Positions 14,307 through 34,360 of a stretch of DNA of 34,474 nucleotides are shown here, piece by piece. Position numbers and translations under genes: made by a program. Position 1 is the first letter of the stretch. Every line of letters begins with the position of its first letter. The stretch spans positions 1 through 34,474 of the forward strand of contig JAGYLP010000020.1 of assembly GCA_018401015.1 (NCBI GenBank). The letters are read 5' to 3'. Below the pieces are notes generated by a model. The model was not told the DNA's origin and searched no databases. It worked only from the letters and a program-made list of their open reading frames with translations. The DNA comes from Bacteroidales bacterium. Its GTDB lineage: Bacteria; Bacteroidota; Bacteroidia; Bacteroidales; M50B96.

Positions 14307-14635
14307 TACAATTCGTTATACTTTTTGGCGGTTCCTTTTGCTTTATTTACCGGGTACTTTACATCGTTTTTTTTAATCTTCTCCAAGAGGATTTCTTTCA
14401 CATCAAAATGATATTTTTCAGCGAGAAGAAAAGCGTAAGCAAACACATCGGCCAATTCCTCTTTCACTTTATCGGGGTTTGCCGCTTCGGCCGATTTCCA
14501 GAGAAAATTCTCCAAAAGTTCTCCGGCTTCGATGCTAAGAGCAAGGGCTAGATCCTTTGGGTTATGAAATTGCTCCCAGTCCCGTTCATTTCTAAACTGA
14601 AGGAGCGCTTCGGTTATGTCTTGTATATCGTTCAT
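14306..14635 (-). CDS. MazG-like nucleotide pyrophosphohydrolase
   Basis: A 109-aa all-alpha NTP-PPase of the short MazG/RS21-C6 type. R-N-E-R-D-W-x-x-F-H-x-P-K-D-L-A is followed by the metal-binding E-A-G-E-L-L-E (E-x-x-E) and K-E-E-L-A-D-V-F-A-Y (E-x-x-D). Such enzymes hydrolyse (d)NTPs to monophosphates and pyrophosphate in the cytoplasm. I start at ATG 14635 (M-N-D-I-Q-D); the longer frame from 14674 only adds residues that overlap the upstream gene. Its stop shares one base with the start of the GIY-YIG/DUF2075 gene, so the two are translationally coupled and probably act together. Confidence 0.9.
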   Translation of the reverse strand: MNDIQDITEALLQFRNERDWEQFHNPKDLALALSIEAGELLENFLWKSAEAANPDKVKEELADVFAYAFLLAEKYHFDVKEILLEKIKKNDVKYPVNKAKGTAKKYNEL

Positions 14636-14660
14636 TTTCTTAATATGTTTAAATCGTTGG

Positions 14661-15332
14661 TTAAACCGATTCAAAAGCCTTTTCCAAAAAAGAATTTATC
14701 TTCCGGCTGGCTTGATAATAATTCATAAGCTCATCCAACAATGTGTCGCTGGTAATGAGATCATAATTCAACTCCGCTCCAAAATAAAACTGTTTGCCAG
14801 CAATGAGTGGTTCGGTTTTAAATGCCTCGGCAAACTCGGGTGGAATTCGTTTGTTCTTTTCGCCGTGGAGGGTTCCGAATAATTCAACGAAGGATGGATC
14901 GGTGTAGGCTTCCCGGAATTCATTGGGCGATTCTGCCATTAACGAGCGGACAGTGTGCAGCATTTTTGTGTCTAAAAAATAGCAGCCTCCGAAGAAGCGG
15001 ATTGCATCGGCTGCCAGCTCGATATAAATGCCTGGATACATTTTATCCCGCTTTCCCAAGGCCGAAATAATAGCTCCCATGTGTAATTTATAAGGAGCCT
15101 TATCCTTGCTGAAACGGATGTCGCGATTGATGCGGACAATGGCGTCTTTGGGCTCTATTTGAACCTTCGGATCTACGAGATGAATTCGAAATATAAAATC
15201 CTGAATGAACCGGTTAAAAGGCTTTTTCACATCATTCTCGTACCGGGAACGATGTTCGTCGAACCAAGCTTTGTGGTTGTTGACCGATAATTCTTTGAAA
15301 AAATCCAGGTATGCCGGAGTAAAGTAATTCAT
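14661..15332 (-). CDS. DUF2461 family protein
   Basis: A 223-aa protein matching DUF2461 (TIGR02453-type) along its length. Marks are F-x-x-L-x-x-N-N-H-K-A-W-F-D-E-H-R at the N-terminus, I-N-R-D-I-R-F-S-K-D-K-A-P-Y-K near residue 70-85, and the G-G-C-Y-F-L-D-T-K region near residue 115. The biochemical function is unknown. It lies 25 bp upstream of the MazG-like gene on the same strand, so it may be the first gene of a three-gene unit ending with the DUF2075 protein. DUF2461 genes are common outside such contexts, so functional linkage is uncertain. Confidence 0.88.
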   Translation of the reverse strand: MNYFTPAYLDFFKELSVNNHKAWFDEHRSRYENDVKKPFNRFIQDFIFRIHLVDPKVQIEPKDAIVRINRDIRFSKDKAPYKLHMGAIISALGKRDKMYPGIYIELAADAIRFFGGCYFLDTKMLHTVRSLMAESPNEFREAYTDPSFVELFGTLHGEKNKRIPPEFAEAFKTEPLIAGKQFYFGAELNYDLITSDTLLDELMNYYQASRKINSFLEKAFESV

Positions 15333-15512
15333 GGGACACGATTTTTGGCTAAAGTAGGGAATTTGAATGAAATTGGGCGTCAGAACAGTTGGTGTTAGGT
15401 GCGCTTTTTATGCCTAGGGAAGCCCAGGGTTTGATTCAACGAATGAAGGGCAAAATCCAAAATTAGGTGGCTACTCCCCTTTAATGCGCATATCTGAATG
15501 CGCCGAAAAACT

Positions 15513-15842
15513 TTAATAACCCTGAAAATAAAACTCGATATGATCTTCCCGGACAAAAAAGAACAAGAGCTTTTCCAGGTTGAAGTAACTGCTTCCAATA
15601 ACCAGAAAGGGTCCGTCGAACGAGAATTCCTGCTTTCTGGTTAAGTCATAACTATTGGTTGCGGTGCTCTCTCCATACGATGTGACCCGATGGAACTTGA
15701 CCATTCCATTTTCGATGTTCTTGGCAGAGCTAATCGAATCAATTTTAGCAATCATTTCTTTGTAATCGGCATTTGATTGACTGTAGCTGATGAATCCTAG
15801 AAGTAAGAGCCATAAGATCAATCCATTTCGCATAAGTTTCAT
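15513..15842 (-). CDS. Small exported protein of unknown function
   Basis: A 109-aa protein with a clear signal peptide (M-K-L-M-R-N-G then a Leu-rich core, ending near S-Y-S-Q). The mature part of about 85 residues resembles no family I recognise; it ends E-D-H-I-E-F-Y-F-Q-G-Y. I use the ATG at 15842 because the nine codons upstream precede the basic n-region. It stands alone, flanked by about 180-200 bp non-coding stretches on both sides, and is probably periplasmic. Confidence 0.6.
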   Translation of the reverse strand: MKLMRNGLILWLLLLGFISYSQSNADYKEMIAKIDSISSAKNIENGMVKFHRVTSYGESTATNSYDLTRKQEFSFDGPFLVIGSSYFNLEKLLFFFVREDHIEFYFQGY

Positions 15843-16038
15843 GATATAGTTTTTATAATGGTACTTCAAAGTTCACCAAATAATTTGATTCCAAGCACCT
15901 GGAAAGAATATTTTACACAGCCAGATAATCCGGGTTTAAAGCTTTTTTTGACATCACCTAGCTACCCGAGGGAATGCAGGCAAGGAATACGAGAAAAAAC
16001 CATCCGCCGTTCCAATGAGCAAATGACTCTTAGTCCTT

Positions 16039-18030
16039 TTATTTCCTCAGAACCACTTTATATCGCCGATTAGCTTCATCGTGTACCCACAGATTATTAC
16101 TTTCGAGGTGCGAAATCCAGTGATACTCAAATGGCACAAAAATCTGATTATCCTTATCAACTACTCCGAATCGTTCATTTTTCCCGACAACCCATAGCTT
16201 CTCTTTGGGCCGATTCCAATGACCCAGAAATTTAATGGAATCGTACTCACAAGGCAGAAGGATTTCATTTTCAAAATTCACCACACCCCACTTCCCTTTG
16301 CGCTTCACCTTAAATATGTCCCGTTCCTGTTCGTAATGATCATCGTAGCGAAGCTCTTCATACTTTTCGGTCAATAATTCTTTTCCCGAATAATCCATCG
16401 CGCCTGTTTTTCCATTTCGGGAATAGAGCAAGTAACGGAGGTTAACACTCATGGCTTCGAGCTTATCATATTTGAAATCGATTAAAATCTCGAAGCTGGT
16501 ATCCATTACTCCGAATCTCCCGTTGGAATGTTGTAGAATCAGTTTATTCTGTTGAAACAACAACTCGTCGGTCATATCGAAGGGAGTAGCCGTCGATAGC
16601 TCTTTTGCTTCGAGTTCCGATTGGTGTTTAGTATAAAAATGACTCACTTGAATGGGATGGAATGATTGATGATACACCATTGGTAAAATCATTCTGTTCG
16701 AAGTAGTGTCGATGATTCCCAGCAAATCGACGTAACGGACAGAACAATAATTTGGGTTAAATCGAAAGTGCAAAGGTTCAATTATCCAGTCGGGTTGCAG
16801 ATTACCTGCATCCTTTTTCTTATTATCGACATCGATACGGTAAAATTCTCCGTTTTTTAGGACCAAGGCCGTAGAATCGGCAGAAAAATCTTCGACATAA
16901 TCGTATTCAAGCGGAATAATGGTTTCATAATCATGATTCCAGAATCCAAATTTCCCTTCTCGGGCAACCCGAAACAAACCCTTTTTATGTTGCAGGTCAA
17001 GCACTTCGTACTGAGGCGGGATAATCTCTTGAAAATCTTCGCTTAACAAGCCTTTTTTATTGTTCTTCGTAACATAAAAAACAGCCCGATTAGTTTCGGC
17101 ATCCAATCTATGGGAGTTTCGTCGGTAAATTTCATCGTAATGATTGAGGGTTAAGAGTTCATTTTGCTGCGGCAGGAAAATAGCAGCGTAGGTAAAATCA
17201 TTCGGCTTATTGTTCGGATCCTTTCCCGACATGAAATAAACAGGTAGTGTTTTTTCCGGATCGATGCTGAGGGAATAAGCATCGAACTTGTAGGCATCGA
17301 AAGTAATGGGAACCACGATTTTGTTTCGGTAGTTAATAATACCCCATTGCTGATTCTTCTGAACTAAAAGATAGGTGTAATAAGGAATAATAGCATCATA
17401 TTCCATTGGCACAACCAGGTTCCCGAGCGAATCGATTAAACCATATTTCACCTCTTTGACTTGACCAAAATCGGTGTCAGTGTAATGGGTAGAGGCTTGT
17501 TCTGCATAAGTAGTTGAAACCTTATAGAAACCGGAAAAATCAAATAGCACTTGTGGACTCTGATACCATACCCCTTTGTAGTCCTGACTACTGTGGTAAG
17601 GGAATAAATTTCGAAAGCCATGAGTTCTTCGCTGGATTGGAATCTCTCGAAAGCGTTTGGTTAAAGTCGATAAATCGTATTTCGTATTGAAAGCTTTTAC
17701 AATCGTGCCGGTAGTATCTCTGAAAAAATATTCATTTCCAACCGGCATCGGGTGAAACATGGAATGGTGCATGGCTCTGGGCTGAATTTGTTCCAGGAAA
17801 AATATTTTTCGATCCCAAAAATCAATATGATCCACTTCGATCATTTGTACTCCATCGTAAAAGGGATAATAAATGGTATCCAATTGGGTGGGCATTTTGG
17901 ATCGGAAAAGATCTTCGGCCTTCAAAGGTCTTTGGAGCGTATCATATTGAGCTTCAGCTGACCCCGAAAGGATAAGCAAAATCGACAGCACCCAAAAAAC
18001 CAGTCCCCTCATCGATCGTTCATTGGTCAT
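16039..18030 (-). CDS. Secreted WG-repeat protein
   Basis: A 663-aa protein with a signal peptide (hydrophobic core about residues 9-22, ending A-E-A-Q), then many degenerate WG beta repeats of the kind G-x-W/Y/F-G-x-x-(D/N)-x-x-x-x-x-x-x-P-x-x-Y-D. Clear units include K-Y-G-L-I-D-S-L-G-N, Q-W-G-I-I-N-Y-R-N-K, K-F-G-F-W-N-H-D, K-W-G-V-V-N-F-E-N-E and R-F-G-V-V-D-K-D-N-Q. The family is common in Bacteroidota, and its members are thought to be binding scaffolds of unknown ligand. ATG 18012 (M-R-G-L-V-F-W) is an alternative start. There is no T9SS tail, so it is probably periplasmic or surface-anchored by other means. Confidence 0.88.
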   Translation of the reverse strand: MTNERSMRGLVFWVLSILLILSGSAEAQYDTLQRPLKAEDLFRSKMPTQLDTIYYPFYDGVQMIEVDHIDFWDRKIFFLEQIQPRAMHHSMFHPMPVGNEYFFRDTTGTIVKAFNTKYDLSTLTKRFREIPIQRRTHGFRNLFPYHSSQDYKGVWYQSPQVLFDFSGFYKVSTTYAEQASTHYTDTDFGQVKEVKYGLIDSLGNLVVPMEYDAIIPYYTYLLVQKNQQWGIINYRNKIVVPITFDAYKFDAYSLSIDPEKTLPVYFMSGKDPNNKPNDFTYAAIFLPQQNELLTLNHYDEIYRRNSHRLDAETNRAVFYVTKNNKKGLLSEDFQEIIPPQYEVLDLQHKKGLFRVAREGKFGFWNHDYETIIPLEYDYVEDFSADSTALVLKNGEFYRIDVDNKKKDAGNLQPDWIIEPLHFRFNPNYCSVRYVDLLGIIDTTSNRMILPMVYHQSFHPIQVSHFYTKHQSELEAKELSTATPFDMTDELLFQQNKLILQHSNGRFGVMDTSFEILIDFKYDKLEAMSVNLRYLLYSRNGKTGAMDYSGKELLTEKYEELRYDDHYEQERDIFKVKRKGKWGVVNFENEILLPCEYDSIKFLGHWNRPKEKLWVVGKNERFGVVDKDNQIFVPFEYHWISHLESNNLWVHDEANRRYKVVLRK

Positions 18031-20905: not shown

Positions 20906-21529
20906 TCAATTCTCCATCAATTGTAATCCTTCCATAGCCGATGAGCCGGTAGGAGTATTCATGAGAGCCTTGTTAAACAACACCCTGGCTTCCCGGTATT
21001 TTTTTAACTGAAAATTCGTCCAGGCATACATTACCAGGGCATCGTAGTCGAAGGGATATAAACTCACCACCTTTTCGAAGTATTTTTCAGCTTTCAGGTA
21101 ATCTTTCTGACCGTAGTAAATTAATCCCAGCCGATGCATCGCAATAGTGTTATTAGGCATAATTTCCAGTATTTTTTCGTACTGACTGATTACGGCAGTC
21201 CAGTTTCCCATTGCTGCCTGTGGCAACACAATGCCAAAACGGGGCTCAACAGCAAATTGCTTGAGAGCAATAGCTTTGTTGTAATAGCTTTGAGCTTCGC
21301 TAAATAAGCCCGATGAATAGGTTAGCCAGCCTAATCGAAGGTTAATTTCGTACGAATTTTCGTTGTAAATTTCTTTTAAATTGAGAATTGCTTCCGAAAG
21401 GTTGCCAGCAGCCTCGTTCAAATAACTTTTCTGAAAGCCATCGATACTTTTCTCATAATCTTGTGCATTAGCAATCGCTCCAATAGTTAATAGCACAAGA
21501 GCTATGCTTAATTTTTTTAAAACTTCCAT
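20906..21529 (-). CDS. Exported tetratricopeptide-repeat protein
   Basis: A 207-aa protein with a signal peptide (M-E-V-L-K-K then a hydrophobic core ending A-N-A-Q) and at least four TPR-like helical pairs: N-L-S-E-A-I-L-N-L, L-F-S-E-A-Q-S-Y-Y-N-K-A-I-A-L, A-M-H-R-L-G-L-I-Y-Y-G-Q-K-D-Y-L-K-A-E-K-Y-F, then K-K-Y-R-E-A-R-V-L-F-N-K-A-L. It is the last gene of the operon running from the PqqD-like gene. Its start lies inside the end of the beta-barrel gene (13-bp overlap). It is likely a periplasmic adaptor for the upstream outer-membrane protein; the partner is inferred from position only. Confidence 0.8.
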   Translation of the reverse strand: MEVLKKLSIALVLLTIGAIANAQDYEKSIDGFQKSYLNEAAGNLSEAILNLKEIYNENSYEINLRLGWLTYSSGLFSEAQSYYNKAIALKQFAVEPRFGIVLPQAAMGNWTAVISQYEKILEIMPNNTIAMHRLGLIYYGQKDYLKAEKYFEKVVSLYPFDYDALVMYAWTNFQLKKYREARVLFNKALMNTPTGSSAMEGLQLMEN

Positions 21530-22854
21530 ATTATTCCTCCTGTAATTGATTGATATTTCATTGATTTATTGTTAGATGTATTAAAAACATCGTCGTCTGG
21601 CACAAACATAGTTTCTGAATGATAGTTTCTGTACCCGATGTACAAGGTGCTCCCCGACTTGTATAATGGGAAAATCAAGTTAACACCATAAATAGAATTG
21701 AATTTTTCCAGGCTGTTGTAGGTTAGCTCGGAAAATGGATCGTAGAAATTGGTAAAACCACCATGCATCCATAAGCCTTCGAGCCAAAGATTTTTATGCA
21801 CTTTCAGTCCTATTTTATGCGATTGAATATTTTGTGTTTCACTGTTGGCGTTTTGTTGCTGAACGTGTTTATACAGTGCTCCTGTATAGTAGAAATTTAA
21901 GTTTCCAAAAGGGAATAGACTCACTAATAAGCCCATATTGTTTTGTGTGCTTAGGTTGAAATTAGAGTGTGCAACAGCTAAGCCCACCTCCACAATTCCA
22001 AGTTGCTTTTTTACTTTTAAAGCTAGGGCAGCTTCGTTAAACGTGTCATAAGTATATACCTTTCTGTCGTTACCCGAGCTAACAGTATAATCATAAACAA
22101 TTGGTACACGATAATTTACAAACGAAATAGCCGGGGTAAAGGTAAAGCCATAAAAGGGCGTTACATCAACAGCTAAATGATAATTGTACTGACGTAAGGT
22201 TTGCGATTCTGACAAATAGGAAGTTGTATCCACCACTTCGAGTGCATAACCATCCCTATATAAAACATTTAGGTGATGGCGAGCCAGCACCGACGAACCC
22301 ATTTGGTGATTCAGACTAACCGCTAAATTGAATGATTTATTGGGCATTATTTGACTGCCGTCTATACCGGTTGGTGCCGTTTGCATTAATTCGTCCTTAA
22401 ACTGATTGCTCAGTCCATTTCCAAGGCCAAGATATATCCCTAATTCGGTGAAAATTTTAGGTTCTCCCTTGTCGATAAAATTTCTCAAAGTCGATGGAAA
22501 ATGGCTCTTCAATTTCAGAGCATCGTTGCTTCTTCCGCTGTACTGGTAACAATAATAAAGGTGCTCAGAGGCAATGGCATCGTTGTGGCTAAACTCCAGC
22601 GCTTGTTTGTAATGAGGAATAGCCTGTCGATAGCGTTTCTTCATATAGTAAGCATAAGCCATTCGTACGCGTAAATAGTAATAATCGATTTGTTGGTCAA
22701 CTGCCAATTCACCAATTTTTATAATCCGGTTCCAGTCGCTGTTTAGGTAAGCACGATAGGTCGCTGTATCGACCTGAATAAAAGTCAAATCCGACTGTGC
22801 ATTTAATGAAATGAGCGACAGAAAAACCGAGTATAATACGATTAATTTTTTCAT
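21517..22854 (-). CDS. TPR plus outer-membrane beta-barrel protein
   Basis: A 445-aa protein with a signal peptide (M-K-K-L-I-V-L-Y ... L-N-A-Q). A short helical TPR-like region follows (about residues 40-115, Y-R-Q-A-I-P-H-Y-K-Q-A-L-E). The rest, about 300 residues, is of alternating amphipathic strands that end I-T-G-G-I-I-W-K-F. A C-terminal aromatic residue after alternating strands is the usual end of an outer-membrane barrel. It overlaps the UT-M23 fusion gene by 4 bp (ATGA) and the next TPR gene by 13 bp, so all three are coupled. It may form the outer-membrane part of an export, import or sensing apparatus; no specific family is recognised. Confidence 0.72.
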   Translation of the reverse strand: MKKLIVLYSVFLSLISLNAQSDLTFIQVDTATYRAYLNSDWNRIIKIGELAVDQQIDYYYLRVRMAYAYYMKKRYRQAIPHYKQALEFSHNDAIASEHLYYCYQYSGRSNDALKLKSHFPSTLRNFIDKGEPKIFTELGIYLGLGNGLSNQFKDELMQTAPTGIDGSQIMPNKSFNLAVSLNHQMGSSVLARHHLNVLYRDGYALEVVDTTSYLSESQTLRQYNYHLAVDVTPFYGFTFTPAISFVNYRVPIVYDYTVSSGNDRKVYTYDTFNEAALALKVKKQLGIVEVGLAVAHSNFNLSTQNNMGLLVSLFPFGNLNFYYTGALYKHVQQQNANSETQNIQSHKIGLKVHKNLWLEGLWMHGGFTNFYDPFSELTYNSLEKFNSIYGVNLIFPLYKSGSTLYIGYRNYHSETMFVPDDDVFNTSNNKSMKYQSITGGIIWKF

Positions 22855-25064
22855 CTTTTAAAGTGAATGGCTCCCTGCTTCGAAAGTACTTGCATCGTTT
22901 TAATTCCCCGAGCGTCGATTTCAATTTTAAATTTTTTCGTTTCCAAAAGTCTATTCATAAAGTAATTATTCATAGCGGCTTCCAGAACAATTAACGATGG
23001 AGATAGGGTATCATCTACTTGCCGACAGGCAATGGTATATTTCGATTTTGCGAGCTGCACAAAAGGGCTGATAAAATCGTGGAACCACAAAATTGTGCGA
23101 GGGAATGTTAAGTAAAGTGGAAATTGATCGTGTACGATTAGATCCTGATAATATCCTTTTTGTACCCTTAGGAGGGAGAGGAACAGCTGGTACAAATAAC
23201 TTTTCTTATTACCTTCGAAATATGTAAAGTAAAAGATGGTTTTGTCGCTTTCAAAATAGGCCATAGCACCCGTTTGAGCGCAATAAAAATACGACTGATT
23301 TAGCTCATTAACGCGAACTTCCCATTGAGCTTCAATTTGTTGATCGGCCTCAACAACCGTAAATTTCAGGATTTGACCCGGGATAAAATCCAGCGCATCA
23401 GCCAGTAAATTATTTACTTCGATATTAGACACCCATTGATCCTGTGCGGGTTTTGAGTGCGTATGTAAGGCAAATAAACCATGCTTGTGTTCAATGTAGT
23501 TACTTAGTGGATAATCCATGGTAACCGCACCGATATATGGATAAGGCTGAATTTGGAAATGCAGATGCGGGTAAGGCGAACGACCGGAATTGCCACAATT
23601 GCCAATTGGTTGTCCAAACTTCACTTCATCTCCTTTTTTTACAGTAATCGACCCCTTTTTAAGATGACTCAATTTGGTGTAAATACCATTACGGTGTTTA
23701 ATAATTACTGTATTCCCCCAATTATCAATTAAGTTGGGTTTGCCTATAATATTGTCAGCAATTCCGTCGGTGACGTTTTCCACGACACCATCCTCGGGAG
23801 CAATAACCGGTTTATTAAAGCAATAATAGTCTTCGGGATAATCACCTTCGTTTTTGTATTGGTTTCCATCCGGGCCCTCAATATTAAAATCCCAGGCATA
23901 GCGGTATGGGCCTTTGTGAGTATGCTCTCCATCGTGTCCTTGTGAGACCTTCCAATGACCGAAAAACGGCAATTTAATTGGAGTAAAGAGTTTAAACCGA
24001 AAACGTTCCTTGTTATTTAGGAAAATATACAAGTTTTTTTCAGGTGCATTATATTGAAAATAAACCTCGGAAAGTGAATATGAATATTTTTCTCTGAATT
24101 TAAGGGAATAGATAAAAAGGAAAACAACCAAATTAAAGGGTAGCGAATATATCGGCAATCTGAATTGCATGAAAATCATGTTCATACTGATGGTTAAAAT
24201 GGCTACAAAGGGAATTAATAAAATCATCCACAGATAAGCATTTCGCGAGGGAATTAAAAAGAAACCGCCCAGTGCAATAGACGAAAGGATGTAGTTAAAA
24301 CCGAAAAAACTATAGTCGTAAATAGTTATTTCGGCCCCTATCAGATTATAAAACCCATACGCAAGGAAAAAACCAATTAAGGAGAGTGAAAAGGCAATTC
24401 GCGAAAAAAGCAACAAACCGAAAGATAAAAGAAACCCGCTTAACACATTGTACTGAAACAAGATGGCACTTAACGATATAAAATAAGCACGCAGAGATGC
24501 CGGCAAGGGCAGATGATTCACTCTTTCATACAAATCCAGGAGTGTTTGGCCACCTAAATGGTATAATTCATTGGTTGTAAAAATGCCTCGCTCATTGATT
24601 CCCAGCACATTAAAGCTTGATGTTGCCAGCATGAAAATCCATAACCCAAGAATAAACGGAATACTTAAAAAGGGTAAACCATATTTCCCTATTACTCCCT
24701 GTAGGGATATAGATATAAAAAAAGTAAATAGCGATGCCAATATGACAATAAAGACCAGATAACAGGTAGGACTAAAATGAACCCCTAAGCCAAGGCCGAC
24801 CAACAGGCTGTTGAATCCAAGCAAGCCTTTTCTGAGTGTATTCCTGTCGAAACTGAGAGTTAGACCGGTAACCACCGTTACAAGAACAGCCAGGAGGCCA
24901 AAGAGCCCGGTGTAGAAATCGAAAAAAGTAACCAGTAAAATAAGAGAAGCAAATACCTTGTGGGTCGAGAAAAATATTTGCGAATAACTGTTTAAAATAA
25001 TCTCAATAAACTCTTTTCCGAATGAATGTTGAGCAGCTATGGAATTCGAAATTTTACTGAACAT
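22851..25064 (-). CDS. Urea-transporter-like membrane domain fused to an M23 peptidase
   Basis: A 737-aa fusion. Residues about 15-325 form a polytopic membrane domain of the urea transporter (UT/Yut) family. It shows the internal duplication typical of UTs: G-L-L-G-F-N-S-L-L-V-G-L-G-L-G (80-94) and G-F-N-Y-I-L-S-S-I-A-L-G-G (255-267). Residues about 365-515 form an M23/LytM-type metallopeptidase with candidate Zn/catalytic residues H383, D392 (W-D-F), H467 (S-H-L) and H500-x-H502 (H-L-H-F). About 220 further residues have no recognisable domain. M23 enzymes usually cut peptidoglycan peptides outside the membrane, so the peptidase would hang in the periplasm below the channel. It follows the decarboxylase by 16 bp and overlaps the barrel gene. 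Confidence 0.85.
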   Translation of the reverse strand: MFSKISNSIAAQHSFGKEFIEIILNSYSQIFFSTHKVFASLILLVTFFDFYTGLFGLLAVLVTVVTGLTLSFDRNTLRKGLLGFNSLLVGLGLGVHFSPTCYLVFIVILASLFTFFISISLQGVIGKYGLPFLSIPFILGLWIFMLATSSFNVLGINERGIFTTNELYHLGGQTLLDLYERVNHLPLPASLRAYFISLSAILFQYNVLSGFLLSFGLLLFSRIAFSLSLIGFFLAYGFYNLIGAEITIYDYSFFGFNYILSSIALGGFFLIPSRNAYLWMILLIPFVAILTISMNMIFMQFRLPIYSLPFNLVVFLFIYSLKFREKYSYSLSEVYFQYNAPEKNLYIFLNNKERFRFKLFTPIKLPFFGHWKVSQGHDGEHTHKGPYRYAWDFNIEGPDGNQYKNEGDYPEDYYCFNKPVIAPEDGVVENVTDGIADNIIGKPNLIDNWGNTVIIKHRNGIYTKLSHLKKGSITVKKGDEVKFGQPIGNCGNSGRSPYPHLHFQIQPYPYIGAVTMDYPLSNYIEHKHGLFALHTHSKPAQDQWVSNIEVNNLLADALDFIPGQILKFTVVEADQQIEAQWEVRVNELNQSYFYCAQTGAMAYFESDKTIFYFTYFEGNKKSYLYQLFLSLLRVQKGYYQDLIVHDQFPLYLTFPRTILWFHDFISPFVQLAKSKYTIACRQVDDTLSPSLIVLEAAMNNYFMNRLLETKKFKIEIDARGIKTMQVLSKQGAIHFKR

Positions 25065-25080
25065 GATATTGAATTAATTT

Positions 25081-26439
25081 CTAAAGGTTTATCCTGCCAA
25101 GATGATCCGGAATTTGATCGAGTTCATTCATTGTTTCGTGCGTTTCGTTATTACGAATTACATGCGGTGTACCTTCGGTATCAATAAGAACTACTTTGGG
25201 ACGATAGGTAATAAATTGCATCCACTGGGTCATGTTATATGCACCTATTCGTTTGATAACTACCTGGTCGCCTTTTTCGAGCACCGGGAACTGTATGGCA
25301 GCTCGAATAATATCGATATTCATACACAAGGGGCCATAAATCGTAGTATCCTCGGTGTCGTGCTGTTTTATATAAGCTGGGACAATATGGTGTTCGTACC
25401 AGAACGATGTAAAAAGATTATTCACTCCAATATCGATAATTAATGAGCGGCGTCCGTCGAGCAAACGTTTATTCGCCAACACGGTTCCGAGCAAATATCC
25501 AGCTTCGTCGATGAGTGCACGTCCAGTTTCCAGAAAAAGTATGGGCATGTGCTCATACTGTATGTCGCTATTAACCAGAGCATCGCTAATAGCCTGGGCA
25601 TAATCGTCGAAGGAGGGACAAGTATCACTTCCGGGCAAATAAGCGCCTTTAAGGGTGTTTTTTGAAGCAAAGCCTCCACCCATATCGATGTATTTGATGT
25701 TATGCTGGTATTTATGTGCAATACGCACGGTTAAAGCGGCTAATTTCGACATGGCCACCGCATAGGCTGTTGGGGTCATTATGTATGTCCCAATATGGGT
25801 ATGCAAACCTACCAGTTCGATATTTGGGTCGGGCATGATTTTATTGATGGCTGTCCATGCTTCGCCATTTTCATAATTAAAACCAAATCGATCCCAATGA
25901 GGATAAATGCCAGTGTCCATATTTATGCGAATAGCCACTTTCGCAACTTTATTCAGCATGGGAGCAATTCTTTTAATGTCGTACAATTCATCGAGGTGGT
26001 CGATATGGATATACGATCCGTTTTCGATGGACCGTTTTAAGTCGTCTTCCGATTTATCGGGGCCATTAAAAATTATTTTGTTACCCGGGACGCCGTTTGC
26101 TATTGCTTTATCATATTCAAAGCCCGACACCACTTCGGCCCAAGAACCCTCTTGGTGAAATACTTTACATACTGCATTCAGATAATTAGTTTTATACGAC
26201 CAGGCGAACTGAACTTTCGGGTAGCGGGTTTTAAATGCAGAAAGCGCTTCCTGATAGGTGTTGCGAATAGTTTTTTCAGATAAAACATACAATGGAGAAC
26301 CGAATTGTTCCAATAAATCCTGTACCGGATAATTATCGATATGACTAATAGGCTGAATGGCTGTTCCTAAACCAAATTTATCGGGGACTCCGGCATGAAT
26401 TCGATTAACCACCGGTCGTTCAAATTTTATTTTTTCCAT
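25081..26439 (-). CDS. Fold-III PLP-dependent decarboxylase (diaminopimelate/ornithine decarboxylase-like)
   Basis: A 452-aa enzyme of the alanine-racemase-fold decarboxylase group. Visible sites are the PLP lysine in S-Y-K-T-N (Lys83), the H-T-H-I-G-T loop (213-218), the phosphate-binding G-G-G-F (254-257), E-T-G-R (304-307, replacing the usual E-P-G-R), and the catalytic Cys in G-P-L-C-M-N-I-D (Cys372). G-A-Y near 399-401 is also conserved. All residues needed for activity appear present, so it should decarboxylate a basic or D-configured amino acid. Its context is not a lysine operon: it sits between an ATP-grasp gene (32 bp upstream) and the UT-M23 gene (16 bp downstream), so it is probably not the housekeeping LysA. 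The substrate cannot be read. Confidence 0.88.
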   Translation of the reverse strand: MEKIKFERPVVNRIHAGVPDKFGLGTAIQPISHIDNYPVQDLLEQFGSPLYVLSEKTIRNTYQEALSAFKTRYPKVQFAWSYKTNYLNAVCKVFHQEGSWAEVVSGFEYDKAIANGVPGNKIIFNGPDKSEDDLKRSIENGSYIHIDHLDELYDIKRIAPMLNKVAKVAIRINMDTGIYPHWDRFGFNYENGEAWTAINKIMPDPNIELVGLHTHIGTYIMTPTAYAVAMSKLAALTVRIAHKYQHNIKYIDMGGGFASKNTLKGAYLPGSDTCPSFDDYAQAISDALVNSDIQYEHMPILFLETGRALIDEAGYLLGTVLANKRLLDGRRSLIIDIGVNNLFTSFWYEHHIVPAYIKQHDTEDTTIYGPLCMNIDIIRAAIQFPVLEKGDQVVIKRIGAYNMTQWMQFITYRPKVVLIDTEGTPHVIRNNETHETMNELDQIPDHLGRINL

Positions 26440-26471
26440 TTTTTCTGATTTTTAAAATTTTAGCCACTATA

Positions 26472-27524
26472 TTATTTTTCAATTTCACCAAAAATCGCCA
26501 ATTGTTCAAACTCATGAATATCTCCTAAAAGATCCCAGGAATAACGAATAAACATTTTACCCACCTGATAACTCTCGTAGGGTGTTACCTCCTTTCCAAA
26601 GGCGAGCTTTACCAAAGCTTCGGGGATATTTTGTCCGGCTCCAACTGCTAAATATACCCAGGCTGGTATACGAGGATTAATTTCTATCATATAATACTCG
26701 TTGGCATTTGTTTTAATCATTTCAAGCTCCATCCCTCCTCGCCACTTTGTTTTGGAAATCAAATCGCGGGTTATGCGGAGCATTTCCTGATCGCTAAGGG
26801 TAATCCCGCTCCATGCTTTCCCTTTGTCAGTAATAAATTGTTTGCGCATGGGAACTGCAGCAATGGTATTACCTAGTCCATCTCCAAGAGCAACTATATT
26901 TACCTCGGTTCCCTTAATAAATTCTTGAATAATAACAGGTAGCCCCCATTTTGCACTGATTTTATTATAATGGTTGGTAACTTGTTCCGGGTTATAGGCA
27001 ATGTATGCATCGTAAAACTTCCCCTTAACAAGCACAGGATATTCAAATTCGTCACTTAACTTTTGAATATCAGTATTACTTACGATTGCTTTACTTTTAG
27101 GGACTTTAATATCGTATTTGGCTCCAAACTCGACTAAATTTGCTTTATGACGTTCTTCAAATTGCTCAATAGTTGGCAAATAGGTAGTAATACCCAATTC
27201 AACAAGCTTTGTTTGAGCTTTCATGAAAGTGTAAAGCTCGGCATCGAGATTCGGAATGATTAAATCGAGTGGATCCTTCCGGTGAATCTCCTCAATCCGC
27301 TCAAGGTAGGCATCTATACCGGTTGAAGGATAAGGTATCATATAAGTTTTATCGATCATATCGGGCATATAGATACCGGGTTCCAGATTCTCGTAGGCTA
27401 AACCAACGATGCGGACATTTAGTTCCTTTGAATCTCGTAACGCCCTTATAACAGGTATTCCAGGACCTGGATTATCGGTGTTGTTTAGCCCGGTTACGGC
27501 AATCGTGAGTGTGAGTTTTTCCAT
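26472..27524 (-). CDS. ATP-grasp carboxylate-amine ligase (CarB-like fold)
   Basis: A 350-aa protein starting M-E-K-L-T-L-T-I-A-V-T-G. An N-terminal pre-ATP-grasp domain carries G-P-G-I-P-V-I-R-A-L and D-L-I-I-P-N-L-D-A-E. The ATP-grasp core has Y-P-V-L-V-K-G-K, I-I-Q-E-F-I-K-G-T-E-V, G-G-M-E-L-E-M-I and Y-Y-M-I-E-I-N-P-R, where the Glu and Asn bind Mg. It resembles the ATP-grasp halves of carbamoyl-phosphate synthase and stand-alone amino-acid ligases. It probably joins an amino or amide nitrogen to a carboxylate through an acyl phosphate. The start at 27524 leaves one base after the PqqD-like stop, so the two are tightly coupled; the longer track start lies wholly inside the PqqD-like gene. 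Confidence 0.88.
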   Translation of the reverse strand: MEKLTLTIAVTGLNNTDNPGPGIPVIRALRDSKELNVRIVGLAYENLEPGIYMPDMIDKTYMIPYPSTGIDAYLERIEEIHRKDPLDLIIPNLDAELYTFMKAQTKLVELGITTYLPTIEQFEERHKANLVEFGAKYDIKVPKSKAIVSNTDIQKLSDEFEYPVLVKGKFYDAYIAYNPEQVTNHYNKISAKWGLPVIIQEFIKGTEVNIVALGDGLGNTIAAVPMRKQFITDKGKAWSGITLSDQEMLRITRDLISKTKWRGGMELEMIKTNANEYYMIEINPRIPAWVYLAVGAGQNIPEALVKLAFGKEVTPYESYQVGKMFIRYSWDLLGDIHEFEQLAIFGEIEK

Positions 27525-27525
27525 T

Positions 27526-27777
27526 CTATTGATCCTCCCGTTCCAACAAATTAAACTGCTCCAACATTCGCACAAAATCATCCATATACCGCTGAAATAC
27601 AGCCGGATCAACCTCATATTTCTCCATAACCGCTTCTAAGACTTCAGCTTCATCCTTATTGTCCTTTAACAGTTTAAGTATAAACTGTCCTGTTTTATTT
27701 AAACTGAACGATTCCCCTGTATTCGGGTCGAACAGAAAACCCGTTTCGCTCACTGCTACATTTGCTTTCAATTTCAT
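27526..27777 (-). CDS. PqqD-like protein (RiPP recognition element fold)
   Basis: An 83-aa protein matching the PqqD family: an N-terminal beta part with E-T-G-F-L-F-D-P-N-T-G-E-S-F-S-L-N-K-T-G-Q-F-I-L written across residues 11-34, followed by helices with V-L-E-A-V-M-E-K-Y-E-V-D and a closing F-V-R-M-L-E-Q-F-N-L-L. PqqD proteins bind leader peptides or act as small carrier-like chaperones for modifying enzymes. I start at ATG 27777 (M-K-L-K-A-N-V) because the 16 upstream codons are lysine and serine rich and outside the domain. It is the first gene of the operon, 1 bp from the ATP-grasp gene. No precursor peptide gene was found next to it. Confidence 0.88.
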   Translation of the reverse strand: MKLKANVAVSETGFLFDPNTGESFSLNKTGQFILKLLKDNKDEAEVLEAVMEKYEVDPAVFQRYMDDFVRMLEQFNLLEREDQ

Positions 27778-27876
27778 GATACTGATTTTTGGCTGTTTAC
27801 TTCGCAAAGATTCCTTTTTTATCAATTGGGCTTTTTACGAAATTTTATTCAAATTGTATGAAATTTTCCGATTCGC

Positions 27877-28464
27877 CTAAATTTCGTCGATCGCTCGTTT
27901 AGATAAACGGTCGCTATCCTTGTATTGACTAACCGTCATGCCTGTAATGGCCTTGAATTGACTCGAAAGGTAATGAACACTCGAATAGTCCATCATATAT
28001 GAAATTTCGCTTAAGGTAAACTCCTCGGTATCCAATAGATGTTTGATTCGCTCAATCTTCTGAAGTACAATGAATTTCTCAAGGGTTTGTTGTTCATGTT
28101 CTGAGAACACTTTGGACAAATACTGATAACTCAAACCTAACTTTTCGACTAAGTAATCCGACTTTCGAACTAATGAATCAACATTATTGAGATGGTGTAT
28201 TAACTCGATGACTGCTATTTTAATTTGTTCAACAATCCGATCTTCTCGAGAATGGATTAATTCGAACCCATAACGAACAAGCATATTATTAATAGCCTCG
28301 TTTGTTATTGGTTTCACACCATGCTTTACTTTTACCTTACCTAATGTAATATCGATAACACTTAGTCCGAGATACTCCAGCTTTTCCTTTATTAAAAAGA
28401 TGGAACATCTACAAAACATGTTTTTAACAAATAGCTCTTCGACTAATATATGCTCGTTTTTCAT
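27877..28464 (-). CDS. AraC-family regulator with HMA-like N-terminal domain
   Basis: A 195-aa protein. Residues about 9-75 look like the ferredoxin-like HMA module seen in a Bacteroidota AraC subgroup (V-K-N-M-x-C at 13-18, then a helix and L-G-K-V-K-V). Residues about 85-190 form the two-helix-turn-helix AraC DNA-binding domain (Y-Q-Y-L-S-K-V-F-S-E-H-E, L-E-K-F-I-V-L-Q-K-I-E-R-I-K-H-L-L, L-S-E-I-S-Y-M-M-D-Y-S-S-V-H-Y-L-S-S-Q-F-K with G-M-T-V-S-Q-Y). The family's C-x-x-C metal pair is reduced to C-R-C (Cys18, Cys20). It lies 99 bp upstream of the PqqD-like gene on the same strand and is the obvious candidate regulator of the operon. Confidence 0.85.
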   Translation of the reverse strand: MKNEHILVEELFVKNMFCRCSIFLIKEKLEYLGLSVIDITLGKVKVKHGVKPITNEAINNMLVRYGFELIHSREDRIVEQIKIAVIELIHHLNNVDSLVRKSDYLVEKLGLSYQYLSKVFSEHEQQTLEKFIVLQKIERIKHLLDTEEFTLSEISYMMDYSSVHYLSSQFKAITGMTVSQYKDSDRLSKRAIDEI

Positions 28465-32349: not shown

Positions 32350-33054
32350 ATGAACATCTTAAAAAATACTTTAGGTGATATTGTCCGCGACGATTTCCGG
32401 ACAGCGGCCTTATTTACGCAACACGACATTGATTTTTGCTGCGGCGGAAAAGAAACGCTTGAGTCGGTGGTAGAACGAATGAACCTGGATGAAAATACAA
32501 TTGTGAAACAGATTGAAGTCCTGAAACAAGAACCGATACCTTTTTCGCACGATTTCAAATCCTGGGAACCCATTTTCTTGATGGATTACATTGTACAAGT
32601 GCACCATGCATTTGTGCGGAAAAATTTGCCCGGTCTTTTACTTTATACCCATAAGATTGCTGAAGTTCATGGTGAGAATCATCCGGAATTAAAGGAGGTG
32701 GCTACTTTATTTTCTGCAATCGCCCGGGAAATGACAGCTCATCTCCAGCGAGAGGAGGAAGTGGTATTTCCGGCTATTCGGAGTTTATTTTCCGAAGGAG
32801 GTTCGACCGATTCCGACTTTTGGCAAAATGAACTCGATGCAATGCACGAAGAACATGAGTGGGTAGGAGCTAATACCGACCATTTAAAAGTACTGACGAA
32901 TAAATATGCTCTTCCGTCCGATGCTTGTCCTACGTATCAAACTGCGATGAATTTGCTTCAGTCGTTCGAGGAAGATTTACACATCCATGTTCATTTGGAA
33001 AACAATATTTTGTTTCCAAAAGTCGAAGCGCGTTTGAAGAAACTTAGTGTTTGA
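32350..33054 (+). CDS. ric: Iron-sulfur cluster repair di-iron protein (ScdA/YtfE/RIC)
   Basis: A 234-aa cytoplasmic protein with the two RIC domains. The N-terminal ScdA_N (DUF542) domain has D-F-C-C-G-G (Cys30, Cys31). The C-terminal hemerythrin-like four-helix domain supplies the di-iron ligands: V-Q-V-H-H-A-F near residue 78, A-H-L-Q-R-E-E-E near 135, M-H-E-E-H-E-W near 168, and H-V-H-L-E-N-N-I-L-F-P-K near the end. RIC proteins repair Fe-S clusters damaged by nitric oxide or oxidants. Length is normal. Paired with a divergent Rrf2 Fe-S regulator and operator sites. The 3' end overlaps the convergent cyanophycinase-like gene by 11 bp. Confidence 0.95.
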   Translation: MNILKNTLGDIVRDDFRTAALFTQHDIDFCCGGKETLESVVERMNLDENTIVKQIEVLKQEPIPFSHDFKSWEPIFLMDYIVQVHHAFVRKNLPGLLLYTHKIAEVHGENHPELKEVATLFSAIAREMTAHLQREEEVVFPAIRSLFSEGGSTDSDFWQNELDAMHEEHEWVGANTDHLKVLTNKYALPSDACPTYQTAMNLLQSFEEDLHIHVHLENNILFPKVEARLKKLSV

Positions 33055-34360
33055 TAATGGGAATCACTTGGCTATCCGATTCCGACCTGATTTGGAGGAA
33101 ATAGATGCCGGGTTTCCATCCATTAGTAAGCACTTTTGACAAAGGTTTGCCCGATAGATTTGGCCTATCAATCAACTCACCCAAAGGGGAGAAGATAGCA
33201 CAGTTGAGTGGTTTTTTAGATAAATTCCAATGAATCGAAAATTCATGTTGAAAAGGGTTTGGGTGAATGTTTACCAGCGCTTGAGGTTCTGTGTCGAAGC
33301 CTTGAATCGGGTTGCTTTGTATCGGGGATCCATTTATTTCGTGGAGCACACCCTGGTGTACGAACCAGTGGAACCATTCACCACCTGACTCTGAGCTACG
33401 ATCGTTCAGGTCGAAATAGAAGTTACCCGCAGGATTTGCCGGGATTCGACAAGCTTTGATGGCCAGGCTATCCCGATACCATTCCAAGGGCATTCCGGGT
33501 TCGCATGTTTCCGGATAGTTCACATTTAGTTGTGGATTTACCTGAACGAACCATACGTAATCCTCGTAATCGGGGTAATCGCCATAGACGGAAGCTTTCC
33601 CGGTTGAATCGATACAAACAGCCGTGTATTCCTCGCAGGCAATAGCCAATAAGCTCCGATTCCAATCTTGAAGGCTTCGTGCCAGGAAGCTTACCAATCG
33701 GCCTTTGCGATCGGGGTTATCGAAATGTGTTTCCATAAAGCTCGATTCGATTAATCCATCGTTCAAAAAGAGCGTTGTATCCAGGGTGAGGTTTGGGTGA
33801 AAGGGATTCATCAATGCCTCGTTGGACGTAATCGTTCCGTATTCTGCGGTAAAGTAAGTATCGCCCAGGATCGCCATTCCTGCGCTCGTCCCCCCGATGA
33901 CGATGTTTTTTAGTTTGATATGGCTACGAATGATGGAATCGACCGGAGTATTTCGCCAGAAATCGATGTAATTCCATTGGTCGCCACCGGCAAACCAGAT
34001 TGCTTCGGCTGCTTGTATCCTTTCCAATACGTAGGAGTCGTACGAGGCAGCGGCTTCGTGAAACACGATGGTTTCGACCGAATGGACATCTATTCCCAGG
34101 TCCGAATACAGGTAATTATTGTAACCGTCTGATCCGCTTGCTCGGAGCACCAGGATATCGCCACCGTTTGCTTGTTGCAGGAACCAGGTCATCGCTGAAT
34201 CATTTTCCGTGGCGCCACCCATGAGGCAAATTCCACCTTTGGCATTCCCTTCCCAGTTTTGGTTGTTTCCGGTGAAATACGACGTATAGCTCTGAGCTAC
34301 ACTGTTCAAGGAGAAGGTAAGCAGGCTGATGCAAGCGACGATGAATCGAATCGAACTCAT
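33044..34360 (-). CDS. Exported cyanophycinase-like (S51) peptidase with T9SS sorting domain
   Basis: A 438-aa protein with a signal peptide (I-V-A-C-I-S-L-L-T-F-S-L-N-S-V-A-Q). A class-I-amidotransferase-like S51 fold covers about residues 40-310: G-G-I-C-L-M-G-G, then W-F-A-G-G-D-Q, then the nucleophile elbow G-G-T-S-A-G (Ser159), then T-H-F-D-N-P-D-R-K-G-R-L. The tail from about residue 360 (V-N-I-H-P-N-P-F ... G-I-Y-F-L-Q-I) is a T9SS type A sorting domain, so the enzyme goes to the cell surface or medium. Cyanophycinases cleave Asp-Arg dipeptides from cyanophycin; the substrate of this exported form is unknown. It overlaps ric by 11 bp at the 3' end. Confidence 0.9.
   Translation of the reverse strand: MSSIRFIVACISLLTFSLNSVAQSYTSYFTGNNQNWEGNAKGGICLMGGATENDSAMTWFLQQANGGDILVLRASGSDGYNNYLYSDLGIDVHSVETIVFHEAAASYDSYVLERIQAAEAIWFAGGDQWNYIDFWRNTPVDSIIRSHIKLKNIVIGGTSAGMAILGDTYFTAEYGTITSNEALMNPFHPNLTLDTTLFLNDGLIESSFMETHFDNPDRKGRLVSFLARSLQDWNRSLLAIACEEYTAVCIDSTGKASVYGDYPDYEDYVWFVQVNPQLNVNYPETCEPGMPLEWYRDSLAIKACRIPANPAGNFYFDLNDRSSESGGEWFHWFVHQGVLHEINGSPIQSNPIQGFDTEPQALVNIHPNPFQHEFSIHWNLSKKPLNCAIFSPLGELIDRPNLSGKPLSKVLTNGWKPGIYFLQIRSESDSQVIPIIKH

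Follow-up and report, generated by a model that had tools for sequence, protein, structure and literature searches.

Background

Discrete RiPP recognition elements (RREs; RiPP, ribosomally synthesised and post-translationally modified peptide) of the lasso type recognise the motif [Y/W]xxPx[L/V/I/F/A]; in LppB, a hydrogen bond joins Asp70 to the leader Tyr, as it does in an actinobacterial lasso complex, and Asn33, Phe74, Met78 and Leu83 also lie at the leader site (PMC13381572). Genome mining relies on RREs to find ribosomal peptide pathways and takes their ligand to be a precursor peptide, and lasso-type discrete RREs found without lasso machinery have been regarded as possible members of uncharacterised RiPP classes or as false positives (RRE-Finder, PMC7470986). 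The N-citrylornithine decarboxylase FigC belongs to a clade with SbnH, AcsE, MccE and BtrK, and also diaminopimelate decarboxylase (DAPDC) and D-ornithine decarboxylase (D-ODC), which includes members acting on conjugates; FigC has T327, T330 and Y331 where other members have acidic residues or Arg (PMC7857480). The present study concerns a six-gene operon in a stretch of 34,474 nucleotides from a Bacteroidales bacterium (GenBank assembly GCA_018401015.1, contig JAGYLP010000020.1), hereafter the window, which encodes a PqqD-like protein, an ATP-grasp ligase, a pyridoxal phosphate (PLP)-dependent decarboxylase (DEC), a fusion of a urea transporter with an M23 peptidase (UT-M23), a putative barrel protein and a tetratricopeptide repeat (TPR) protein. 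The view that the PqqD-like protein is an RRE, predicted to bind the N-terminal tail of the neighbouring DEC and not a separate precursor peptide, is strongly supported.

Sequence sets

A scan of genome records for UT-M23 gave 36 loci, of which 35 are UT-M23 relatives and one (L039) matches in M23 only; some end at contig ends, and L001-L003 and L039 (own copy or M23-only) were left out of the neighbourhood counts. A second set consisted of 247 genomes sampled across Bacteroidota, with cut-offs of E up to 1e-90 for DEC and up to 1e-40 for ATP-grasp; here another three UT-M23 rows match in M23 alone, and the UT-M23 match of genome G005 falls in two overlapping pieces. The same species could occur in both sets. 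For the DEC tail, 136 rows were reduced to 133 by the removal of genome repeats (L137, L142, L151) and to 132 by leaving out the incomplete L102; L034, which has no full DEC, was also left out of the tail statistics. Four of the newer rows (L117, L120, L123, L155) carry an identical ATP-grasp segment.

Results and discussion

A lasso-type RRE and a leader-like tail on the decarboxylase

The features on which the main finding depends are the following.

27526..27777, minus strand: PqqD-like discrete RRE, 83 aa (PqqD Pfam 1.2e-13; TbiB1 the best PDB match)
27586..27588, minus strand: codon of RRE residue 64, Tyr in the window protein (from the TbiB1 alignment and co-variation)
25081..26439, minus strand: alanine racemase (AR)-fold PLP decarboxylase, DEC, 452 aa (Pfam Orn/DAP/Arg decarboxylase 2.7e-31; DAP, diaminopimelate)
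26365..26439, minus strand: DEC residues 1-25, conserved leader-like tail, predicted disordered (model confidence and alignment)
26407..26424, minus strand: FERPVV, DEC residues 6-11, an [Y/F]xxPx[I/L/V] motif of the RRE-recognition type (motif in 132/132 relatives)
26371..26379, minus strand: K21-F22-G23 of the DEC tail, near-invariant and at fixed spacing from the Tyr/Phe

The start of the PqqD-like gene was set at the ATG at 27777, giving 83 aa; the mechanical open reading frame (ORF) begins with TTG. An initial annotation of the window, made without database searches, had proposed a carrier or RRE protein, and the comparisons point to an RRE rather than to PQQ chemistry: a profile of 28 PqqD-like proteins matches TbiB1 (5v1u/5v1v) at 2.3e-12 and TfuB1 (6jx3) at 2.9e-9 in the PDB, far ahead of true PqqD at 0.014. 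Its best NCBIfam match is the lasso PqqD model, but below the cut-off (41.2 of 70 bits), and it is the sole PF05402 match in the window's genome at E 0.01. Judged by its sequence, the protein is a lasso-type RRE. The C-terminus of the PqqD-like protein, considered as a carrier site, was rejected, its length and residues being variable. No Asn-synthetase-like lasso cyclase, B2 protease or short precursor was found by Pfam and NCBIfam among the six operon genes.

In the TbiB1 alignment the Asp of ERDLRDF falls on RRE residue 64. Placing LppB by residue spacing (constant offset 6) puts its Asn33, Asp70, Phe74, Met78 and Leu83 on RRE residues 27, 64, 68, 72 and 77, where the relatives (n=133) carry Asn27 in 130, Asp64 in 118, Phe68 in 115, Leu72 in 128 and Leu77 in 113 rows.

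A counterpart to this pocket is present at the start of DEC. The pattern [Y/F]xxPx[I/L/V]...K-x-G opens all 132 readable DECs, one per genome, with unchanged spacing; Pro9 and Lys21 are conserved in 132 and Gly23 in 131. A stricter form of the motif, used in an earlier listing, was matched in 51 of 53, missing L080 (YESP) and L034. The start of about 25 residues precedes every listed alignment to solved decarboxylases, and in an AlphaFold model with a mean predicted local distance difference test (pLDDT) score of 82.6 residues 1-25 score below 50.

The aromatic residue of the tail co-varies with RRE residue 64. Among the 132 pairs, tail Tyr occurs with Asp64 in 117, with Asn in one and with His in one, and tail Phe with Tyr in 12 and with His in one; every Asp64 (117/117) is thus paired with tail Tyr, and every tail Phe with Tyr64 or His64 (13/13). 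In the first 51 rows the combinations were Tyr/Asp64 (39), Phe/Tyr64 (10), Tyr/Asn (1) and Tyr/His (1), and residue 64 was the only one of the 83 RRE positions with a phi coefficient of 1.00 to the tail residue, the next reaching 0.74. The 81 further readable genomes gave Tyr/Asp in 78, Phe/Tyr in two and Phe/His in one. The genes concerned are also neighbours: PqqD, ATP-grasp and DEC are collinear in 106 of 107 short loci read, these 106 representing 102 genomes, 82 of which lie outside the twenty fetched loci described below and the window's own genome.

A separate precursor near the operon was sought among 1326 small ORFs in 52 loci. A YxxP-like match within the first 40 residues was seen in 65 of them (37 loci), and no conserved YxxP small ORF family was found within 1.2 kb (or the contig end) of the 52 loci, more distant precursors not having been searched.

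Several points weigh against the reading of DEC as the RRE ligand and temper its strength. The pairing is not one-to-one, L071 having Phe with His64 and L022 Tyr with His64. The LppB residues were transferred by spacing, with no alignment; the LppB Asp was known before residue 64 was inspected; and the 28-row alignment in which the co-variation first appeared is a subset of the 51 rows used for phi. On a tree of DEC core and ATP-grasp, the tail residue changes three times and Tyr/not-Tyr at residue 64 three times, well-supported branches forcing two, and a phylogeny-aware test has two independent pairs (sign test, p 0.5) and is not significant. The sole exception to collinearity, L196 (genome G601), has a large ORF between PqqD and ATP-grasp; PqqD and UT-M23 share contig and strand in this genome, and its pair (L208/L196) is Tyr/Asp, in agreement with the co-variation. 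The co-variation therefore draws its weight from falling on a position known from structures and from its perfection, and not from many independent events.

The tail and its co-variation with the RRE had escaped the initial annotation, and they change the likely ligand of the PqqD-like protein. Lys21, which is invariant, and Gly23, which is nearly so, are not part of the RRE motif and hint at a second role of the tail, perhaps as an attachment or cleavage site.

Organisation and conservation of the operon

The remaining features of the operon are given below.

27877..28464, minus strand: AraC-family regulator, 195 aa (HTH_18 1.5e-12, Pfam), upstream of and outside the conserved six
26472..27524, minus strand: ATP-grasp ligase, 350 aa, PRK12767/CPSase-like (Pfam ATP-grasp 1.6e-9)
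22851..25064, minus strand: UT-M23 fusion, 737 aa (Pfam UT and M23)
24108..25010, minus strand: urea-transporter domain, residues 19-319 (UT Pfam 5.9e-62; structure comparison)
23454..23996, minus strand: M23 (LytM) domain, residues 357-537 (M23 Pfam 4.9e-18; alignment)
21517..22854, minus strand: exported protein with N-terminal TPR followed by a putative outer-membrane barrel (Pfam TPR; sequence features)
20906..21529, minus strand: exported TPR protein, 207 aa (TPR_2 5.8e-20; signal-peptide-like start)

The six genes and the AraC-type regulator all lie on the minus strand between 20906 and 28464 of the window, with gaps of 1, 32, 16, -4 and -13 bases within the six-gene set and 99 bases between AraC and PqqD; the ATP-grasp start was set at the ATG at 27524 (350 aa) in place of a 381-aa ORF. 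This layout agrees in positions and gaps with that annotated initially, and the family calls (PqqD, ATP-grasp, decarboxylase, UT-M23, TPR and AraC), including the claim of a ligase followed by an amino-acid-type decarboxylase, are upheld by Pfam profile matches. Promoter and terminator signals were not in excess over shuffled sequences.

Wherever the contig reaches, PqqD, ATP-grasp and DEC precede UT-M23 in this order (31/31 loci) and a TPR gene follows it (32/32). In the sample of 247 genomes, UT-M23, DEC and ATP-grasp occur in an identical set of 23, and regions fetched from 20 of these 23 have PqqD, ATP-grasp, DEC, UT-M23 and TPR in order in all 20. Scattered homologues, named beforehand as the outcome that would speak against a common unit, were not seen. 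By record title, the operon ranges over Bacteroidales, other Bacteroidetes metagenome-assembled genomes (MAGs), Balneolales, Algoriphagus, Lutibacter, Plebeiobacterium and Pedobacter, and outside Bacteroidota over one Cloacimonadota and several Verrucomicrobia records. ATP-grasp is present in 76 of 395 genomes of the window's class and in 34 of 395 of a larger phylum sample.

A tblastn search detects the barrel gene in 27 loci, and of the 26 loci having both genes 23 retain the 13-base overlap of barrel and TPR. In Cloacimonadota and Verrucomicrobia loci the barrel slot has room for a gene and ORFs were called in several, tblastn giving no match; in one group of the fetched loci the TPR gene comes first and the barrel-like gene after it is shorter, at about 270-300 aa. 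The conservation of order across phyla, together with the kept overlap, is far beyond chance. On this comparative evidence from gene sequences the six genes are one self-contained, transcription-unit-like system, from which the AraC gene is excluded since a homologue lies upstream in just three of 35 loci (L010, L016, L018); flanking genes vary between genera. A common seventh gene was looked for and rejected, no added gene being general across the loci.

Some loci carry additional genes. An IF-2B-family gene, which we take to be methylthioribose-1-phosphate isomerase-like in L019, where the family was scanned, is inserted between DEC and UT-M23 in the related genomes of L019 and L021, and a DUF4405 gene occupies the same place in L022. 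A secreted-looking protein of about 280 aa is encoded upstream of PqqD on the same strand in seven of the 20 fetched loci (L086, L089, L090, L092, L093, L094, L095); that of L086, the only one of the seven scanned, has a type IX secretion sorting tail, and these loci may thereby possess a partner of the system at the cell surface. In the Verrucomicrobia locus L036 a large protein with a C-terminal S74 endosialidase-chaperone domain (14271-16619) follows the operon, and a gene of the same cluster is present in L034, L035, L037 and L038. The Verrucomicrobia-type operon of L037 stands in a record labelled Klebsiella pneumoniae (MAG), a label which looks wrong. Elsewhere in the window, 12114-14306 encodes a 730-aa protein with matches to GIY-YIG, a Schlafen-group-3-type helicase and an S24 peptidase-like domain, and 33044-34360 encodes a peptidase S51 protein, presumably cyanophycinase-type, with a type IX secretion tail.

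The decarboxylase and its probable substrate

The best solved match of DEC is N-citrylornithine decarboxylase (7kh2) at 2e-83, ahead of the best DAP decarboxylase at 1.9e-61 and BtrK at 5e-40; its placement in the FigC clade is a matter of profile ranking only. Met373, which follows the catalytic Cys and replaces the acidic residue beside it, and Thr344, Trp347 and Tyr348 are invariant in 28 rows. Thr344 and Tyr348 align to FigC T327 and Y331, Trp347 stands at T330 and an Ile at FigC His357, a citrate contact. As the FigC-type Met, Thr and Tyr are kept but His357 is replaced by Ile, the substrate is probably a conjugate, though not a citryl one. DEC resembles N-citrylornithine decarboxylase and not LysA or ODC, so that its probable substrate is an amide conjugate formed by the ATP-grasp enzyme.

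The UT-M23 fusion and the exported proteins

The UT-M23 model has a mean pLDDT of 87.4. Its UT domain forms a complete fold, aligning by VIA-align to UT-B, UT-A, zebrafish UT and dvUT with Z of 35.6-36.6 and a root-mean-square deviation of 2.2-3.0 over 304-317 residues; the complete ten-helix fold and the Pfam match support an inner-membrane UT domain. In an alignment with dvUT, the position of F80 is F84 in the window protein and Cys in Verrucomicrobia rows, the Thr of the LTxPF motifs is Ser, and Ala replaces the Glu of GEVMF in the window protein; some of these positions would matter for urea. The M23 domain matches M23/LytM domains with Z of 11.8-14.7, and H383, D392, H500 and H502, the zinc/catalytic residues (His, Asp, HxH), are invariant in 29 rows. 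The C-terminal beta region (540-737) has no Pfam match.

UT proteins are passive channels with both termini in the cytosol. With loops assigned by hand, the net charge is higher on the side of the N- and C-termini in 23 of 29 rows, and Lys plus Arg are more numerous on that side in 17 and fewer in five. The UT fold and this charge pattern together would place the M23 domain on the cytosolic side, next to the other three enzymes. Stand-alone relatives point outside instead: in the five readable of seven M23-only rows, which come from three genomes, the N-terminus looks by eye like a signal or lipoprotein peptide. The two indications conflict, and the contact of the domain with cell-wall peptides suggested initially stays conjectural. 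Conserved cysteines, considered as a sign of a cytosolic M23 domain, were dropped, the exported-looking L063 and L065 keeping the same Cys.

The TPR protein has a signal-peptide-like start in 29 of 31 relatives and the barrel protein an exported N-terminus in 19 of 22 (simple rule in both cases), which agrees with the exported TPR and barrel-type parts initially annotated. The N-terminal part of the barrel protein is TPR by Pfam. For its barrel part neither a family nor a PDB match was convincing, the best 60 of 104 PDB matches being TPR proteins, and its relatives are mostly TPR by Pfam, with YfaZ at 0.008 in one of 22. The exported start, the beta-type alternation in the window protein and a C-terminal Phe (13 of 22 relatives) suggest an outer-membrane barrel of putative fold.

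Proposed function and alternative explanations

In the scheme that we consider first, the RRE would clasp the DEC tail and bring DEC to the ATP-grasp ligase, which would make an amide conjugate of an amino acid; DEC would remove the alpha-carboxylate of the conjugate, the decarboxylated product being a small amide or amine. The product would cross the inner membrane by the UT-type channel, an outward direction being assumed, and the fused M23 domain would trim or release this product, or else its carrier. The exported TPR and TPR-barrel proteins would provide the rest of the route or hold the complex to the outer membrane. An RRE-clasped ligase/decarboxylase assembly making a small decarboxylated conjugate that crosses a UT-type channel, with M23, TPR and barrel in the service of the envelope, is given about an even chance. 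The points that count against it are the exported-looking M23-only relatives, the putative nature of the barrel fold and the size of the solute, UT channels being known for urea-sized solutes, which limits the product.

An alternative that is unlikely, yet has several features in its favour, is a RiPP-like maturation of DEC itself. The tail would then be leader and core in one (Y/F...P...K-F-G), presented by the RRE, with ATP-grasp ligating something to K21 and/or M23 cutting at the K-F-G junction; the enzyme and not a small molecule would be matured, or DEC would carry its substrate on the tail. Conservation as high as that of the RRE motif is seen at K21 and G23 (132/132 and 131/132), although neither is part of it, an RRE with an ATP-dependent amide ligase and a peptidase resembles the gene logic of the lasso type, and the UT topology, if it holds, would leave M23 on the cytosolic side. 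The distance from the Tyr/Phe to G23 is 17 residues, and the leader aromatic lies at -15 (PbaA) and -16 (LppA) from the core (PMC13381572). On the other hand, K-F-G may be a second docking contact, and the UT channel and barrel are left without a clear role. We know of no M23 domains acting as RiPP leader peptidases, which also counts against such maturation.

Uptake and use in place of export is quite unlikely. The barrel and TPR proteins would take material in, a periplasmic M23 domain would free small amides from cell-wall or other peptides, and the UT channel would pass these inward for assimilation by the cytosolic ligase and DEC. The invariance of the M23 catalytic residues and the exported look of the M23-only relatives (five read of seven rows) would fit, and passive channels leave the direction open; the fold and the charge (23/29) would put the M23 side in the cytosol, however, and an RRE and a tagged, conjugate-type decarboxylase are biosynthetic features.

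In a further possibility DEC, a metabolic enzyme with a RiPP-type leader of its own, would be both client and reactor of the RRE system: the RRE would present the tail, ATP-grasp would charge Lys21 with an amino acid through a side-chain carboxylate, DEC would decarboxylate the tethered amino acid and the M23 domain at the cytosolic face of the channel would free the product into it. This version is very doubtful; were it true, it would represent a ribosomal-leader pathway that has no precursor peptide and makes a urea-sized amide.

A classical RiPP pathway, with the precursor encoded elsewhere and the DEC tail a mimic or regulatory tether only, is highly improbable. Some discrete RREs of the lasso type do occur without lasso machinery and may belong to uncharacterised RiPP classes (PMC7470986). 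Against it stand the co-variation of the DEC tail with the RRE and the lack of a conserved YxxP small ORF within 1.2 kb of the 52 loci, a search that did not extend to distant precursors.

That DEC is a plain DAP decarboxylase (LysA) for lysine, with the other genes unrelated, is scarcely credible and was rejected: although no LysA above the curated cut-off was found in the window's genome G000 (rated 99% complete) or in G116, DEC itself scores 228.5 bits against the TIGR01048 cut-off of 297.9, a separate LysA above the cut-off is present in 10 of the 12 operon genomes examined, and the Asp beside Cys and the DAP-binding Arg (PMC7857480) are Met and, by alignment to 1TWI, Thr in DEC. The only other PF02784 protein in the window's genome (C45) looks to be of the arginine-decarboxylase type.

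Significance and comparison with known systems

If the RRE binds the tail of a metabolic enzyme as proposed, the RRE-leader code would have been put to a second use, and part of the lasso-type discrete RREs that lack lasso machinery (RRE-Finder, PMC7470986) could be accounted for in this way. The operon occurs in cultured genera (Pedobacter, Algoriphagus, Lutibacter, Plebeiobacterium) and three of its genes are found all or none, which makes the substrate, the product and the channel-peptidase role directly testable.

No described system with this gene combination was found in the open-licence literature, in agreement with the initial annotation. The closest relatives of the individual parts are known. 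UT/SLC14 channels (dvUT, UT-B) share the whole fold, with Z of about 36, whereas here the channel forms one protein with M23 and a beta region at the C-terminus, and the Glu of dvUT GEVMF is replaced. M23/LytM peptidases (ShyA, DipM, Csd1-Csd2, LasA) share the fold and the zinc/catalytic residues, while the present domain is channel-tethered and has an extra EDYYCFN segment. The butirosin proteins BtrI, BtrJ and BtrK offer a similar set of a small protein, a ligase (BtrJ, which we take to be the ATP-grasp of the side-chain pathway) and an AR-fold decarboxylase acting on a conjugate; BtrI, however, is a carrier protein, whereas the small protein here is an RRE whose C-terminus varies.

FigC/FslC N-citrylornithine decarboxylase, with SbnH, AcsE, MccE and BtrK, has the same fold, the Met after Cys and the Thr and Tyr of the specificity helix, and the named relatives of FigC act on conjugated amino acids (PMC7857480). 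DEC differs in having Ile for His357 and Trp for T330, an ATP-grasp partner in place of an NIS (NRPS-independent siderophore) synthetase, and an RRE-type tail. The discrete RREs of lasso and LPP systems (TbiB1, TfuB1/FusB1, LppB) are the nearest counterparts of the PqqD-like protein: TbiB1 and TfuB1 are of the same RRE sequence type, the pocket residues Asn, Asp and Phe are spaced as in LppB, and the motif [Y/W]xxPx[hydrophobic] is common to these systems. In contrast to them, the leader-like motif is carried here by a PLP decarboxylase and not by a precursor peptide, the six genes include no lasso cyclase or B2 protease, and Phe stands for Tyr in 13 of 132 tails.

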